A stretch of 64,000 nucleotides of DNA. It comes from Chryseobacterium gleum. Its GTDB lineage: Bacteria > Bacteroidota > Bacteroidia > Flavobacteriales_D > Sanyastnellaceae. The position numbers were made by a program, and so were the translations under genes. Positions 50,911 through 57,045 of this stretch are shown in pieces (position 1 is the stretch's first letter; each line of letters opens with the position of its first letter). Where the stretch lies: contig CAMCVP010000001.1 of the NCBI GenBank assembly GCA_945881835.1, positions 186,001 through 250,000 of the forward strand, in the 5' to 3' direction. Below the pieces are notes generated by a model, which ran no database searches, was not told where the DNA came from, and saw only the letters and a program-made list of their open reading frames with translations.

Positions 50911-51594
50911 ATGTATCAAGAAAATAGTTTAAACAAAACAGCGGTGAACAAATCGCGCACGAGAGAACTGTTGCAAACGGCAGACGGCTCGTTCACGTTG
51001 TTTATTCCGGAAGTGGAAGAGACGTATCACAGCACGCACGGCGCTGTTCAAGAGTCGATGCACGTGTTTATTGAAAACGGATTGTTTGTGTGTGAAGGGA
51101 AATCGTTGCGCATCTTGGAAGTTGGATTGGGAACGGGATTGAACGCGTCGTTAACGCTTCAGCATGCAACAAAAAAAATCGAATATTGCGCATTAGAACC
51201 TTATCCGTTATCGAAGGAAATCTTAGAAGAACTTTCAATCAATAAATCGGATCAGTTCGAAATGAAATTTCATTTATCAGCGCCGAACGAGTGGATTTCC
51301 ATCCACGAACAATTTTCATTTGCACGAATGGAAGTGGGGTTGGAAGAATTTCAGTCGGAAGAAAAATTCGATATCATTTATTACGATGCCTTTGGTCCTC
51401 GCGTAGAGCCTGGCTTGTGGACGTTGGAGCGCATGCAACAATGTTTCAATTTGTTGAATGAAGGCGGAATCTTCGTTACCTATTGCGCGAAAGGCGAAGT
51501 GCGTCGCAATCTTCAAGCGGCGGGGTTTGTTGTGGAACGGTTAGCGGGGCCGCCGGGCAAGCGCGAAATGCTTAGAGGGGTGAAACCCCTCTAG
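50911..51594 (+). CDS. mnmD: MnmD-type tRNA (mnm5s2U34) methyltransferase
   Basis: 227-aa SAM-dependent methyltransferase corresponding to the methyltransferase half of MnmC (DUF752), standalone as MnmD. Seen: TADGSFTLFIPEVEETYHS, the SAM loop EVGLGTGLNASL, and the family signature YYDAFGPRVEPGLWT. It should methylate the 5-aminomethyl group of wobble uridine 34 in tRNA. The last six codons and stop lie in a perfect 9-bp hairpin (51573-51593) that also opens the GAAT hairpin chain. Confidence 0.9.
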   Translation: MYQENSLNKTAVNKSRTRELLQTADGSFTLFIPEVEETYHSTHGAVQESMHVFIENGLFVCEGKSLRILEVGLGTGLNASLTLQHATKKIEYCALEPYPLSKEILEELSINKSDQFEMKFHLSAPNEWISIHEQFSFARMEVGLEEFQSEEKFDIIYYDAFGPRVEPGLWTLERMQQCFNLLNEGGIFVTYCAKGEVRRNLQAAGFVVERLAGPPGKREMLRGVKPL

Positions 51595-51647
51595 AATGTC
51601 TTTCAGACGAATGCCCTTCGGGCGAATGCTTCGCGTATGTATTTGAC
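51573..51647 (+). repeat. GAAT micro-hairpin chain A
   Basis: Five consecutive units: a 9-bp hairpin spanning the mnmD stop (arms TAGAGGGGT and ACCCCTCTA, loop GAA), then GAAT, GTCT-TTC-AGAC, GAAT, GCCC-TTC-GGGC, GAAT, GC-TTC-GC, and a weaker last unit GTATTTGAC after GTAT. Stems differ but loops are TTC or similar and the linker stays the same. Confidence 0.9.
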
Positions 51648-51667
51648 GTTTATGCAAAGTTGAGAGA

Positions 51668-51693
51668 AGTTAAGAAAAGGTAAGAGAGGGGAA
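51668..51693 (+). repeat. Purine-rich tract preceding chain B
   Basis: AGTTAAGAAAAGG then TAAGAGAGGGGAA. A near-identical 26-nt tract at 52539-52564 precedes chain D in the same way, with one substitution, and a shorter one is at 53118-53134. Confidence 0.8.
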
Positions 51694-51696
51694 AAT

Positions 51697-51746
51697 GTCT
51701 TTCAGACGAATGCCCTTCGGGCGAATGCTTCGCGAATGTCTTTGAC
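51697..51746 (+). repeat. GAAT micro-hairpin chain B
   Basis: GTCT-TTC-AGAC, GAAT, GCCC-TTC-GGGC, GAAT, GC-TTC-GC, GAAT, GTC-TTT-GAC. First three units are identical to chain A. It is bracketed by a purine-rich tract upstream and a pyrimidine-rich tract downstream. Confidence 0.9.
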
Positions 51747-51749
51747 GAA

Positions 51750-51783
51750 ATTCTCATTCTCATTCTCTTTGTGTTTCTCATTC
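51750..51783 (+). repeat. Pyrimidine-rich repeat, copy 1
   Basis: ATTCTC repeated, then TTTGTGTTTCTCATTC. Copies at 53207-53238 and 55924-55955 share the TTTGTGTTTCTCATTC end and the same preceding ATTCTC-type tract. Confidence 0.85.
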
Positions 51784-51872: not shown

Positions 51873-52469
51873 TCACTTCCTTCCAACAAACCGCACAACA
51901 TCTGCAATACCAATGTGGTATTTTCCTTCGTTGAGTTCGACTTGTTTTTCTTCTAAAATTTCAAAGTGAATTCCGTGGAAGTCGCTCATGAGTGTTTCAA
52001 TGGAATAGAGCATTTGAATGTCTCGCGGTCCGCCGGAGTTGTTGTTGAGTTGAAGGGGATTGTACGCTTCGAGAATAACTGTGCCTCCTGGTTTTAGCCA
52101 GTTTTTTATTTTGCCGTGTAATTCAATTCGAAGTGTTTCGGGGAGATGCGAATAGATGAGTACAATGGCATCGAAGGTGTTGTCTTCAAAGTTAGCGTCG
52201 GCAACATTGCAAATTTCATAATTGATTTTCGCGTTGAAGGAAGCGGCTAGATCTATGGCTTTCTGTTTTCCAACTTCACTTATGTCGAAGGCCTCAACCT
52301 CCCATCCCAATGCTGCAGCATACGTGGCGTTGCGACCTTCCCCTTCGCAAGGAAATAGAATTTTTCCAACGGGAAGTTTATCGATTTGTTCTTTGAAAAA
52401 TTCGTTAGGCGTTTGTCCATAAGCAAACCCCTCTTCACTGTATCGTGCATTCCAAAATTCAGTATTCAT
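51873..52469 (-). CDS. Class I SAM-dependent methyltransferase (TehB-like)
   Basis: 198-aa methyltransferase. The SAM-binding motif I is LFPCEGEGRNATYAAALGW with the acidic strand VEAFDIS; motif III/IV appears as FDAIVLIYSHLP, and NWLKPGGTVILEAYN is the post-motif strand. This form is typical of TehB/thiopurine-like methyltransferases that act on small molecules; the substrate is unknown. It ends one base from hairpin chain C. Confidence 0.85.
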   Translation of the reverse strand: MNTEFWNARYSEEGFAYGQTPNEFFKEQIDKLPVGKILFPCEGEGRNATYAAALGWEVEAFDISEVGKQKAIDLAASFNAKINYEICNVADANFEDNTFDAIVLIYSHLPETLRIELHGKIKNWLKPGGTVILEAYNPLQLNNNSGGPRDIQMLYSIETLMSDFHGIHFEILEEKQVELNEGKYHIGIADVVRFVGRK

Positions 52470-52993: not shown

Positions 52994-53073
52994 AAGACAA
53001 ACATATTTCTAGGATTTTGAAAACGCACTAACCTTTATATGCAGTTTATATGCTGTTTATTCCGGGGAAGAAT

Positions 53074-53105
53074 GTCTTTCAGACGAATGCTTGAATGTCT
53101 GCGAC
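53074..53105 (+). repeat. GAAT micro-hairpin chain E (degenerate)
   Basis: GTCT-TTC-AGAC, GAAT, then a decayed unit (GCTT), GAAT, GTC-TGC-GAC. It keeps linker spacing but has lost one hairpin. Confidence 0.8.
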
Positions 53106-53142: not shown

Positions 53143-53164
53143 GGATCGAAATATCTTTCGATCC
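53143..53164 (+). repeat. 9-bp hairpin with TATC loop, copy 1
   Basis: Perfect 9-bp stem (arms GGATCGAAA and TTTCGATCC) with loop TATC. It differs from the copy at 55891-55912 by a paired A-T to G-C change in the third base pair, so pairing is conserved. Confidence 0.9.
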
Positions 53165-53167
53165 TCA

Positions 53168-53238
53168 GGTAAGAGAAGATAAGAGAAAGTAAGAGGGGGG
53201 AAGAAAATTCATTCTCATTCTCTTTGTGTTTCTCATTC
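53168..53238 (+). repeat. Purine tract plus pyrimidine repeat, copy 2
   Basis: GGTAAGAGAAGATAAGAG and further GTAAGAGG-type purines to 53203, then the ATTCATTCTCATTC and TCTTTGTGTTTCTCATTC repeat (53207-53238). Same order as at 51668-51783 but without a GAAT chain between. Confidence 0.8.
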
Positions 53239-53326
53239 TAGTTCAGTCTCGTTGAATGGAAATAAATCAAGAATCTTGAAAAAAATGACAAGGAAGTATT
53301 GATTTTATTTGTTGAAAATCCTCAAC

Positions 53327-55882
53327 ATGAAAAGACTTCTACTCTTCAGTTTGCTCGTTTTTATTTTTCAGACTGCGAAAGCCCAACGCCTAGTGCCATT
53401 CGTAGTAAACAATCAGCAACACATCTTGAACGATGGCTTAGATAATTTCTCTTGCTATGATGGAGAATTGTTTCATGATTCTCTTTTTGTTTCAGTCAAT
53501 TATGGCGACACACTTAATCATTCTGCATTGAAAGTTCTGAAGGGTGATGTGCTATCGGAGGTTTCATTAAACTGGGATACCAAATATGGAAAAGTATTTG
53601 ATTTATTTGGCAGCTCGGAAAAACTATGTGCTGTGGGGACAAAGATTGATTCGATTGCAAATATTAATTATGCGAATCTTGCAATATTAGAAAACGGGGT
53701 TTGGAGTGAATACAGCTACCCTAACTACTCAAGATTTAGTTTCGGAACTGTTTTTAACAACAAGATTTTTTTGTTCTCTAATCTTTCACGTTCGGTATGC
53801 TTTTTTGAAAACGGAGTTTTTAATGAAATCGCTGTGGATTCAGTAGTGGATGCTCAGGTGTACGATGAGAAATTGTTTTTCATTGATAGGAATTATTCAG
53901 GTATCAATTATTTAGATTCTCTGGGTGAAGTGCACACCGAAGAAATAGCATGTGACTCATTGTTGCGATTTAGTATGGTAAACGGACAATTATTTGTTTC
54001 AGGAAAGTGCAATGAGTTTTTGTTTCGAAGGAATGAAAATGCAGAATGGGTGTTCGATGATTTGGGAGTCGATTTTAGCCCGTTCCGCACCACAAGTTTA
54101 GGAAGTGTTTATCTCTCACAAAGGGGCTATTTAGCCAATTTCACCAACGATATTCGACCTCAACTTCAATTCTATGCTCAGAGTAATTCTTATGAATTGC
54201 TTCAAAAAAACGAATTGAACAAGTACATTCTTAATGTCATAAACTTCGAAGGAAGAGAGTTTGCAATTTGTAGAAGTATTAGTGCTGTAGATGGAATGAA
54301 AGGTGGGATTTGCACGGTAGAAAATGGCTGGAAGCAGCAGAATATCTCAAATCAGCTTGTTTCAGAAACATCGTACCCTTCTTTTTCTTCCTATTTGTAC
54401 CAATCCTCTTATTTTACTTTTGATTTTCGCCCAATTGGTTTAGGATATAAGGATAATAAGGTTGTTTTTACTGCGGCTCCGCTTTTATATGGGATTAAGA
54501 ATGATTTAATTTCTGGAGTTGGAGGTTTATTCGAAACAGGTTTGAACGGTGCATATGCAGGTCCTTTATCTAATATTTATTCCAACGAATTCGCCAAGAA
54601 ATATGACAGAGTATGGAAGGTGAAACAAGCCGATATTGAATACCACAATCAACATTGGTACGAAGCGAATTATTCGGCTCCAATTGATATTTTGGAATGG
54701 CCAGGAAATGGTTCAATTGTAAATGGAGAACCTCAAATAATTGCACCCTTTCACGATGTAAATGGAAACAATATCTACGAGCCACAATTTGGAGATGCGC
54801 CAGAAATCAAAGGAGACGAGGCAACATTTTATATTGTTTCAGATGGAAGAGAAGTTTCACCAACGTTTCTTAACTCTAGTTATGAAAGCACTATTTCAAA
54901 TATAGAAATGTCGGTACTGACGTATCTCTTTCACAATGCTCCCAGCCAGGCTTTGAGTCAAACAGTTTTTACCGATTATCGCATAGTGCTGCGCGACGAG
55001 ACTCCCTTGAATGAATTTTATTTCGGAATGCACACTGATTTCGATTTAGGCTCAGGATTCGATGATTTTATTGGATGTGACAGTACCCGAAATTTAGTTT
55101 TCGGATACAATGCAGATGATTTTGATGAGCAGTCGTCCATGTCTTATGGTTATGCGAATGAGGTTCCAGCATGCGGTTATCGTTTATTAACCAGCAACAT
55201 AACATCAAGTGTTTATTTCAATGCGAGTTTAAGTCCTGTTTACGGTCAACCAAATACCAATGAGCAATTGTTTAATGTTTTGAAAGGAAAGCGAATTGAT
55301 GGTTCTTCAATTTTGAATCCAATTACTCAGCAGCAAACCTCTTTCATGTACAGCGGTGAAGTGGGCGTGCCTGGTGTTTGGAACGAAGTAAATGTTCAAA
55401 ATCCCGGTGGTGATCGACGATTGATAGTTTCTGCTTTTGTTGGTGATCTTCAACCCAACGTTCCGCTGTGTATTTCCGTTGCGCGAATTGTTGGTTCAGA
55501 CACCCTATCTGCTGGTAGCCCTTCAGTAAATGCAGTTTACAAAATGAAACAGTATTCAGACGAAGTGCAACAGTATTACGACCAATACCTTCAGACGACC
55601 GATTGCAATCAGTTGGTTGGTGTGGAAGAGGAAAGTGAAGATGCTTATGGAGTGAACGTATACCCCAATCCATCGAGCGATCGAGTGGCAGTTCAAGCAA
55701 CTCGAAGCTCCATCTGTAAGGTTGAGTTATTTAATCCAATTGGAAGTCTTATATACAGCGAATCCGGTCTCGAAGTGGGTGCTGTTATTATCGATGTAAA
55801 TGCTCTCGCAACGGGTTTGTATTCTGTTCGCGTGTACTTAAATGACGGAACAATTGAAGTGAGAAAAATTATTGTTGAATAG
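53327..55882 (+). CDS. Large secreted protein with T9SS type A sorting domain
   Basis: 851-aa cargo protein. ATG at 53327 starts the signal peptide MKRLLLFSLLVFIFQTAKAQ. Residues about 25-400 are rich in short beta repeats (VNYGDTLNHS, NGVWSEY, NGVFNE types), perhaps a propeller. A Bacteroidota module with DVNGNNIYEPQFGDAPEIKG and FGMHTDFDLGSGFDDFIGCD follows (about 470-600). The last 75 residues are the type A C-terminal sorting signal (VNVYPNPSSDRVAVQA ... TGLYSVRVYLNDGTIEVRKI). It should be exported by T9SS and anchored or released at the surface. Function unknown. Direct copies of a hairpin and a pyrimidine repeat lie on both sides. Confidence 0.88.
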   Translation: MKRLLLFSLLVFIFQTAKAQRLVPFVVNNQQHILNDGLDNFSCYDGELFHDSLFVSVNYGDTLNHSALKVLKGDVLSEVSLNWDTKYGKVFDLFGSSEKLCAVGTKIDSIANINYANLAILENGVWSEYSYPNYSRFSFGTVFNNKIFLFSNLSRSVCFFENGVFNEIAVDSVVDAQVYDEKLFFIDRNYSGINYLDSLGEVHTEEIACDSLLRFSMVNGQLFVSGKCNEFLFRRNENAEWVFDDLGVDFSPFRTTSLGSVYLSQRGYLANFTNDIRPQLQFYAQSNSYELLQKNELNKYILNVINFEGREFAICRSISAVDGMKGGICTVENGWKQQNISNQLVSETSYPSFSSYLYQSSYFTFDFRPIGLGYKDNKVVFTAAPLLYGIKNDLISGVGGLFETGLNGAYAGPLSNIYSNEFAKKYDRVWKVKQADIEYHNQHWYEANYSAPIDILEWPGNGSIVNGEPQIIAPFHDVNGNNIYEPQFGDAPEIKGDEATFYIVSDGREVSPTFLNSSYESTISNIEMSVLTYLFHNAPSQALSQTVFTDYRIVLRDETPLNEFYFGMHTDFDLGSGFDDFIGCDSTRNLVFGYNADDFDEQSSMSYGYANEVPACGYRLLTSNITSSVYFNASLSPVYGQPNTNEQLFNVLKGKRIDGSSILNPITQQQTSFMYSGEVGVPGVWNEVNVQNPGGDRRLIVSAFVGDLQPNVPLCISVARIVGSDTLSAGSPSVNAVYKMKQYSDEVQQYYDQYLQTTDCNQLVGVEEESEDAYGVNVYPNPSSDRVAVQATRSSICKVELFNPIGSLIYSESGLEVGAVIIDVNALATGLYSVRVYLNDGTIEVRKIIVE

Positions 55883-55890
55883 GTTTTATC

Positions 55891-55912
55891 GGGTCGAAAT
55901 ATCTTTCGACCC
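55891..55912 (+). repeat. 9-bp hairpin with TATC loop, copy 2
   Basis: Perfect 9-bp stem (arms GGGTCGAAA and TTTCGACCC), loop TATC, 8 nt after the stop codon of the T9SS gene. A terminator role is possible although no T run follows. Confidence 0.9.
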
Positions 55913-55923
55913 TAGAGAATAAA

Positions 55924-55955
55924 ATTCATTCTCATTCTGTTTGTGTTTCTCATTC
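55924..55955 (+). repeat. Pyrimidine-rich repeat, copy 3
   Basis: ATTCATTCTCATTCTG then TTTGTGTTTCTCATTC; one base from copy 2. With the hairpin it forms the right-hand direct repeat around the T9SS gene. Confidence 0.85.
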
Positions 55956-56076
55956 TGTATTGTGTCTTCTCATAAAAGTCGTAATTTAGTGTCAATGATA
56001 AAGCGGTTTTTTGGAATTAATTTCCAAAATGGTCACCAAATGATTGAAATAAGAACTCCTAAAGAAATTTTCAATT

Positions 56077-56232
56077 ATGGAAACGAAGAATAAAGATGTC
56101 TCCAAAACATTTGATGCAATTAAAGTTATGCGTCAAATTCGAGATAAATTAAGTCTCGAAATTATGAATATGACTTTTGAAGAAGAGCGTGCCTATATAG
56201 ATAAGCTGCTTTCAGAAGGAAATAAAAAGTAA
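56077..56232 (+). CDS. 51-aa antitoxin-like protein
   Basis: ATG at 56077 to TAA at 56232. The protein METKNKDVSKTFDAIKVMRQ continues IRDKLSLEIMNMTFEEERAY and ends in a Lys-rich tail. The KTFDAIKVMRxIRDKLS-IxxMTFEE pattern is that of short Bacteroidota proteins usually found before PIN- or RelE-type toxins, acting as antitoxins. No toxin gene follows here; the next gene is a convergent methyltransferase 12 bp away. A small upstream ORF (55995-56093) overlaps its start and is less convincing. Confidence 0.65.
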   Translation: METKNKDVSKTFDAIKVMRQIRDKLSLEIMNMTFEEERAYIDKLLSEGNKK

Positions 56233-56244
56233 ATCAGTCAGGTC

Positions 56245-57045
56245 CTAAGACCGTGCAACCCCCTCCAAAGCAAACACCAACGGCATTTTATTTCCGAAAT
56301 GCTTCACACGGAATTTTCCGGGTTCGAATTCTTCAGCGTGCTTGAAACAGGCATATGGAGAATAATCGAATTCTTGGAATTGAGTCAGCTGAAGGCCTTG
56401 TCCAAGAAGCGATGTAAGGACTTCGCTGGTAGAATGATTCCAATAAGCACACGTGATTTCAATGTCGGAAGTAGGATCGGCGTATGTGCCGGTGCTGGTT
56501 TCGATGTCCGGACCAGCATTGAAGTAATTGTATCCTAGCGTTTGAAAGTCATTGTCGAACATCCACATGACCGGATGAAATTCAACGAAAATAAATTTGC
56601 CTGAAGGCTTCAAGAAATGAGAAACAACGTCCGCCCAACGATTTAAATCGGGCAACCAACCAATGGTACCGTAACTGGTGAACACGATGTCGAATTTTTT
56701 GTCGAGGTGTTCCTTCAAATCATACACATTGCAACAAACAAACTCGGCGTTCAAATTCATTTGTGTATTCAGCTCTCTCGCTTTTTCAATGGCCGTGTCT
56801 GAAAGATCGACTCCCGTTACTTCAGCTCCCATGCGCGCTAGCGAGAGCGAATCTTGTCCGAAGTGACATTGCAAATGCAAGATAGATTTACCGCGAATGT
56901 CGCCGAGCAAATTCAATTCAATTTCATTCAATGAAGTTTTTCCATTCAGGAATTCTTCCAAAAAATAAAAATCAGATTTCATGTGAACAGCAACACGCTT
57001 GTTCCATGAGGTTCTGTTCATTTCAAACAACTCGCTCTGTTCCAT
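56245..57045 (-). CDS. Class I SAM-dependent methyltransferase
   Basis: 266-aa methyltransferase. Motif I HLQCHFGQDSLSLARMGAEV with VTGVDLSDTA, then the acidic motif FDIVFTSYGTIGWLPDLNRW and the post-motif FLKPSGKFIFVEFHPVMWMF. The C-terminal region (YNYFNAGPDIETSTGTYADP) is a family-specific lid. Small-molecule substrate probable, unknown. It is translationally coupled to the preceding conserved gene (TAATG overlap) and is the last gene of the murQ run. Confidence 0.85.
   Translation of the reverse strand: MEQSELFEMNRTSWNKRVAVHMKSDFYFLEEFLNGKTSLNEIELNLLGDIRGKSILHLQCHFGQDSLSLARMGAEVTGVDLSDTAIEKARELNTQMNLNAEFVCCNVYDLKEHLDKKFDIVFTSYGTIGWLPDLNRWADVVSHFLKPSGKFIFVEFHPVMWMFDNDFQTLGYNYFNAGPDIETSTGTYADPTSDIEITCAYWNHSTSEVLTSLLGQGLQLTQFQEFDYSPYACFKHAEEFEPGKFRVKHFGNKMPLVFALEGVARS

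Follow-up and report, generated by a model that had tools for sequence, protein, structure and literature searches.

A T9SS cargo gene as a probable module of a gene-shuffling locus with REP/BIME-like composite repeats at its joints

A cargo gene between two methyltransferase genes

The window, that is, the whole stretch of 64,000 nucleotides analysed here, contains a gene that a preliminary description of the same DNA had called a T9SS cargo gene. The assignment was borne out, as the 851-aa product carries a T9SS type A sorting domain that scores above the cut-offs of both profiles (TIGR04183, 32.4 bits with a cut-off of 23; PF18962, 35.9 bits with a cut-off of 27). The features of the locus are listed in Table 1. 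Profile searches gave no family match for the 51-aa open reading frame (ORF) on its right side, and Rfam models found only two tRNAs in the window.

We compared nine genomes of the genus (G000 to G008), each from a separate species; G000 is the window's own genome (2.53 Mb). The eight relatives are mostly fragmented (70-260 contigs each), and repeats are where assemblies break, which counts against the rearrangements read from these relatives.

Table 1. Features of the cargo locus, with positions in the window
Feature	Position	Strand	Remarks
mnmC2-like tRNA methyltransferase gene, left border	50911..51594	+	NF033855, 185 bits (cut-off 136)
GAAT-tagged mini-hairpin arrays with a purine word between	51594..51749	+	
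Third copy of the pyrimidine word	51744..51783 (C1:237744-237783)	+	93%
SAM methyltransferase module, 198 aa (MTase198)	51873..52469	-	PF13649
Truncated ORF6N-domain module, 139 aa	52574..52993	-	PF10543; 289 aa in G007
GAAT-tagged mini-hairpin array	53070..53105	+	Breakpoint between ORF6N neighbour and cargo gene
Upstream hairpin GGATCGAAA-TATC-TTTCGATCC	53143..53164	+	Orthologous hairpins GGGTCG..CGACCC in G006 and G007
Purine word	53168..53204	+	Absent from the site in G006 and G007
Pyrimidine word, upstream	53200..53239	+	Absent from the site in G006 and G007
T9SS cargo gene, 851 aa	53327..55882	+	TIGR04183, PF18962; single here, tandem pair in relatives
Downstream hairpin GGGTCGAAA-TATC-TTTCGACCC	55891..55912	+	Directly past the stop codon; present in G006, decayed in G007
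Pyrimidine word, downstream	55917..55956	+	Window only
51-aa ORF	56077..56232	+	Near-identical sequence (L050) starts the small ORF pair in G007
SAM methyltransferase gene, 266 aa, right border	56245..57045	-	PF13649

The left border gene, mnmC2, was found in six of the nine genomes and the 266-aa methyltransferase gene in seven; the left side is not comparable in the three genomes without mnmC2 at the threshold used. Between these two genes, gene content and order differ in every species seen. The window has MTase198, the truncated ORF6N gene, the cargo gene, and the small ORF. In G007, two cargo genes are followed by a lipoprotein-like gene, a small pair (toxin-antitoxin-like as judged by eye), the ORF6N gene, and another gene. 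G006 has a two-gene pair (HEPN/MNT-like, again by eye), MTase198, two further genes, the ORF6N gene, and two cargo genes. Other gene sets occupy the locus in G003 and G002. MTase198 also adjoins mnmC2 in G002 and lies within the locus in G006 and G003, and remnants of the mnmC2 tail occur within the locus in G003 and G006.

A full-length cargo gene is present in three of the nine genomes (G000, G006, and G007). The other genomes, 71-96% complete, gave only short domain-level matches to it. G006 and G007 have two tandem paralogues and the window has one gene, which matches the first paralogue in its upstream region and signal peptide and the last paralogue of G007 in its C-terminus. We infer that the single gene is a fusion of the two paralogues. 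The change from two tandem genes to one would be best explained by recombination between the paralogues, a deletion that would have kept the downstream hairpin of the last gene.

Flanking hairpins and dispersed words

As the preliminary description had stated, hairpins with a 9-bp stem and a TATC loop stand before and after the gene and differ by one compensated pair (A-T to G-C), and a pyrimidine repeat (40 nt, 95% identity) is found on both sides. The hairpins keep orthologous sites, 5' of the (first) and 3' of the (last) cargo gene, in all three species with the full-length gene. As they are ancestral on both sides and different from each other, they do not represent a fresh duplication. 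The third pair of the upstream hairpin is G-C in both G006 and G007 and A-T in the window, which places the compensated change on the window's branch. From these comparisons, the hairpins appear to accompany the gene or gene pair while the neighbours change, and not to be its exchange points. The pyrimidine words are specific to the window's lineage.

The hairpin core occurs in the window at only these two places with zero mismatches, and at 8 places with up to three mismatches (1.75 expected). With up to one mismatch, the 2.53-Mb genome has it at five places, four of them exact, and the reversed-pattern control gave none; the looser pattern GGGGCGAAANATCTTTCGCCC gave 23 matches on both strands of the genome and none in the control. 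A duplication limited to the cargo gene was rejected, as the exact core also occurs at contigs C6 and C27, and the same hairpin is also copied within reading frames and at unrelated genes. We collected 29 distinct hairpin contexts, leaving out those shorter than 40 nt and opposite-strand duplicates. The 22 distinct 22-mers among them have 91.4% of cells paired and both-sided changes at five of the nine pairs, and their covariation score was 0.232, compared with 0.107 +/- 0.017 for shuffled rows (0/500 reached it) and at most 0.059 when the pairing was slid.

The 35-nt pyrimidine pattern matched twice in the window and never in shuffled sequences; with up to three mismatches, it matched four times in the 2.53-Mb genome (control, 0). 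A chance origin of the hairpins and the pyrimidine repeat was rejected by the shuffled and reversed-pattern controls. The 161-bp block upstream of the gene gave many weaker matches in the genome. When the four words were searched in 464 kb of the same contig, 23 matches were obtained (purine 8, pyrimidine 9, GAATG 4, and hairpin 2), and reversed controls gave 2 matches for the pyrimidine word and 0 for each of the others. Eleven of the 23 fall in the 4.4 kb of the cargo locus. The repeats are dispersed yet sparse, and concentrated at the cargo locus. The idea that they border most housekeeping genes, which the preliminary description had named as evidence against itself, was rejected by this low number. 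A 262-bp composite repeat from G006 gave 46, 0, 26, 54, 9, 17, 28, 55, and 19 matches in G000 to G008, respectively, with only 40 candidates scored in seven of the nine genomes. Elsewhere in the window's genome, the pyrimidine word stands in long inverted pairs (CATTCTGTTTCTC ... GAGAAACAGAATG) within several spacers of one stretch (C12:34000-38600, L125).

Joints between modules and words within proteins

Each array unit consists of a GAAT tag and, after it, a very short palindrome whose sequence is free. Among 97 distinct units, a count that includes stemless units from the pyrimidine word, 54.6% have stems of at least 3 bp, compared with 2.0% after shuffling the letters and 21.4% after swapping halves between units. 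A second family of tagged mini-hairpins, with GATCAA-type tags, was observed in the window's genome at C21:2900-4200 (L130) and in L048, and also near one Y1 transposase gene.

Several module joins fall exactly at a GAAT-tagged array. The stretch between the GAATG array and the start codon of the cargo gene is collinear in the window, G006, and G007, except for word insertions in the window; to the left of the array lies mnmC2 in G007 and the ORF6N gene in the window and G006. The breakpoint shared by the species is at the GAATG array, about 70 bp upstream of the upstream hairpin. A 20-mer, GAATGTCTTTCAGACGAATG, occurs 14 times, in five of the six locus sequences examined. To its left, the end of mnmC2 is joined to four different right partners (in the window, in G006, in G007, and at the G003 remnant). 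The ORF6N gene to the left of the joint is followed by the cargo gene (window and G006) or by another gene module (G007 and G003), and the cargo gene as the right partner has two different left partners. As the ORF6N-cargo adjacency is found in two independent genomes, and the adjacency of ORF6N to the other module also in two, random assembly error is argued against.

The same words are also found in frame within proteins. The ORF that follows the gene for an ECF sigma factor (PF04542, PF08281) contains four in-frame hairpin copies in the window's genome (G000:C17:21398-21841). It encodes a small membrane protein with matches in eight of the nine genomes. We read seven orthologues, including that of the window's genome (L123 and L148; orthologues L149-L154), and did not use a fragment from G006. 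The membrane part and the C-terminus are conserved, and the linker is a different mosaic of words in each orthologue: the hairpin peptide is present in 4/7, the purine word in 4/7, and the reverse pyrimidine word in 3/7. The palindromes lie in frame within otherwise intact genes, and all seven linkers are open, one of them (L153) in a frame that runs off its contig. The purine word (EVREVKRGEE) was also observed five times in frame within an ORF of about 367 aa in the window's genome (C1:51274-51708, L124).

Interpretation and comparison with known systems

We consider it probable (about 0.6) that the cargo gene belongs, as one module, to a gene-shuffling locus in which dispersed, REP/BIME-like composite repeats serve as joints. 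The vocabulary of these joints would consist of the GAAT-tagged mini-hairpin arrays, the TCGAAAnATCTTTCGA hairpin, the purine word, and the pyrimidine word. Recombination between nearly identical arrays of about 40-60 bp may join modules or remove them. As suggested by the junction sequences, this would be homologous recombination, most simply of the RecA type.

The idea of a cassette gained or lost through direct repeats, put forward in the preliminary description, stood in part. The gene is patchy among the species, its neighbours vary, and the breakpoints lie within repeats. That the hairpin-pyrimidine units are themselves the cassette ends, recombination between which gains or loses the cargo gene, is improbable in our judgement. 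These units do flank the gene as direct repeats, and the hairpins stay beside it when its neighbours differ. In G008, where no full-length cargo gene is present, one hairpin-purine-pyrimidine unit adjoins mnmC2, as would be expected of an empty site; this match is only suggestive, since the contig stops about 400 bp past the unit. No within-species empty site was seen among the genomes compared, all of which are separate species. However, the pyrimidine units are specific to the window, the breakpoint was observed at the GAATG array, and the only copy-number change seen lies between the paralogues. The sign of a cassette-like locus was real, but the wrong repeat had been chosen as the joint.

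The hairpins might instead be ordinary selected RNA elements (a terminator or stabiliser of the mRNA end, and a 5'-UTR structure), with the rearranged locus an unrelated hot spot. The downstream hairpin starts 8 bp past the stop codon in the window and lies close behind it in all three species, and the changes are compensated, one of them on an orthologous copy. We consider this account quite unlikely, however, as no U-run follows the hairpin, the same hairpin is found within reading frames and at unrelated genes, and the rearrangement breakpoints adjoin it. An integron-like process also seems unlikely, although relatives of the window do have a candidate enzyme and site. G007 encodes a 280-aa Xer/IntI-like tyrosine recombinase (G007:C75, L209:5062-5901) with 222.7 bits for NF040815 (cut-off 220) and 224.6 bits for TIGR02249 (cut-off 265). 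A conserved site of about 80 bp (TTTAnCTAACCGCAACA...GGGTAGGTTTGT...) lies directly after its gene, and a truncated copy of the recombinase with the site occurs in G002:C33 (L210 from 4160). Copies of the site stand before modules in G002, G003, G006, G007, and G008 as well, and in an integron-like process the recombinase would act there. Yet none of the nine genomes passes the cut-off for an integron integrase (best, 224.6 of 265 bits), and both-sided changes were seen at 0 of the 13 predicted pairs when the site was examined for an attC-like covarying hairpin in nine copies (seven from the search and two added by hand, with one unrelated row dropped). Membership in the integrons was rejected on these two grounds. 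Moreover, the site is absent at the cargo gene. It contains TAGGTTTG, which we take to fit the Bacteroidetes promoter element; thus, the site may be a promoter.

Chromosomal integron cassette arrays contain unrelated small genes, some of them toxin-antitoxin-like pairs, with repeats between. The present locus resembles them in all these respects; it differs in having no integrase above the cut-off, no covarying attC hairpin, and mixed gene orientation. A match to Flavo-1 RNA (RF01705) above the gathering score was found in one composite repeat of G002 (L118:2301-2370, G002:C38) and not at the window's repeats. Of the several words in the composite repeat, Flavo-1 corresponds to a single one; this RNA motif is thereby linked to the word mosaic.

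The closest known kind of element is the REP/BIME repeat. As far as described in the available portions of PMC3733652 and PMC6006769, the likeness to REP, BIME, and REPIN elements includes short compensated hairpins, a short constant tag that precedes stems of varying sequence, mosaic composites in either orientation, intergenic dispersal with some in-frame copies, and, at one Y1 transposase gene, an adjoining array. A 20-40 nt palindrome in many copies was found here (the 29 contexts, with compensated stems), as was a BIME-like mosaic in which palindromes of either orientation are combined with other motifs (a plus array, the pyrimidine word, and a minus array), a composite matched in eight of the nine genomes. 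The tag is GAAT, unlike the GT[AG]G or CGTC given in the same portions of these sources (PMC3733652, PMC6006769); at the foot of the hairpin, GTAG was found in only two of the 29 contexts, most having ATCG or ATAG. The present stems are also only 2-5 bp, in tandem arrays, and the arrays are interspersed with the purine and pyrimidine words and form joints between gene modules. With Rickettsia palindromic elements (RPEs), the locus shares palindromic repeat DNA in frame within genes (PMC10969869 and PMC3733652, in the parts available). RPEs are insertions of about 150 bp according to the accessible text of PMC10969869, whereas here several words of about 20-30 nt build one linker, in a mosaic that differs by species. 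In-frame REP-type insertions are known from the available portions of PMC10969869, PMC3733652, and PMC6006769, and those portions contain no description of a linker made wholly of several words differing between species.

In a REPtron, an array lies beside the Y1 transposase gene. Two Y1 transposase genes were found in the window's genome. Five GAATG tags lie within about 250 bp of one of them; the second has no GAATG array, and the TCGAAATATC hairpin was not seen beside either gene. Both proteins have a YIQNQ motif of the Y----Q type, which belongs to class 1 and class 3, not to the classical REP-associated classes, in the part of PMC6006769 available to us. Hairpin cleavage by a Y1 (HUH) transposase could help to spread the words. 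Throughout the genus, one hairpin-tagged word set might both recombine modules and rewrite protein linkers in frame, and a Y1- or Xer-type enzyme would spread it through its action on the GAAT mini-hairpins; we offer this only as a tentative extension, held with low confidence.

In the open-access literature searched, we found no relevant report on Bacteroidetes integrons or on intergenic repeats that shuffle genes. REP-like repeats are generally seen as passive or regulatory elements. As the same repeat block lies at the exact joint of different gene combinations in related species, whether repeats drive changes in gene content becomes a testable question. The species-specific, in-frame mosaic of the linker suggests that one repeat vocabulary may shape gene order and protein sequence alike.
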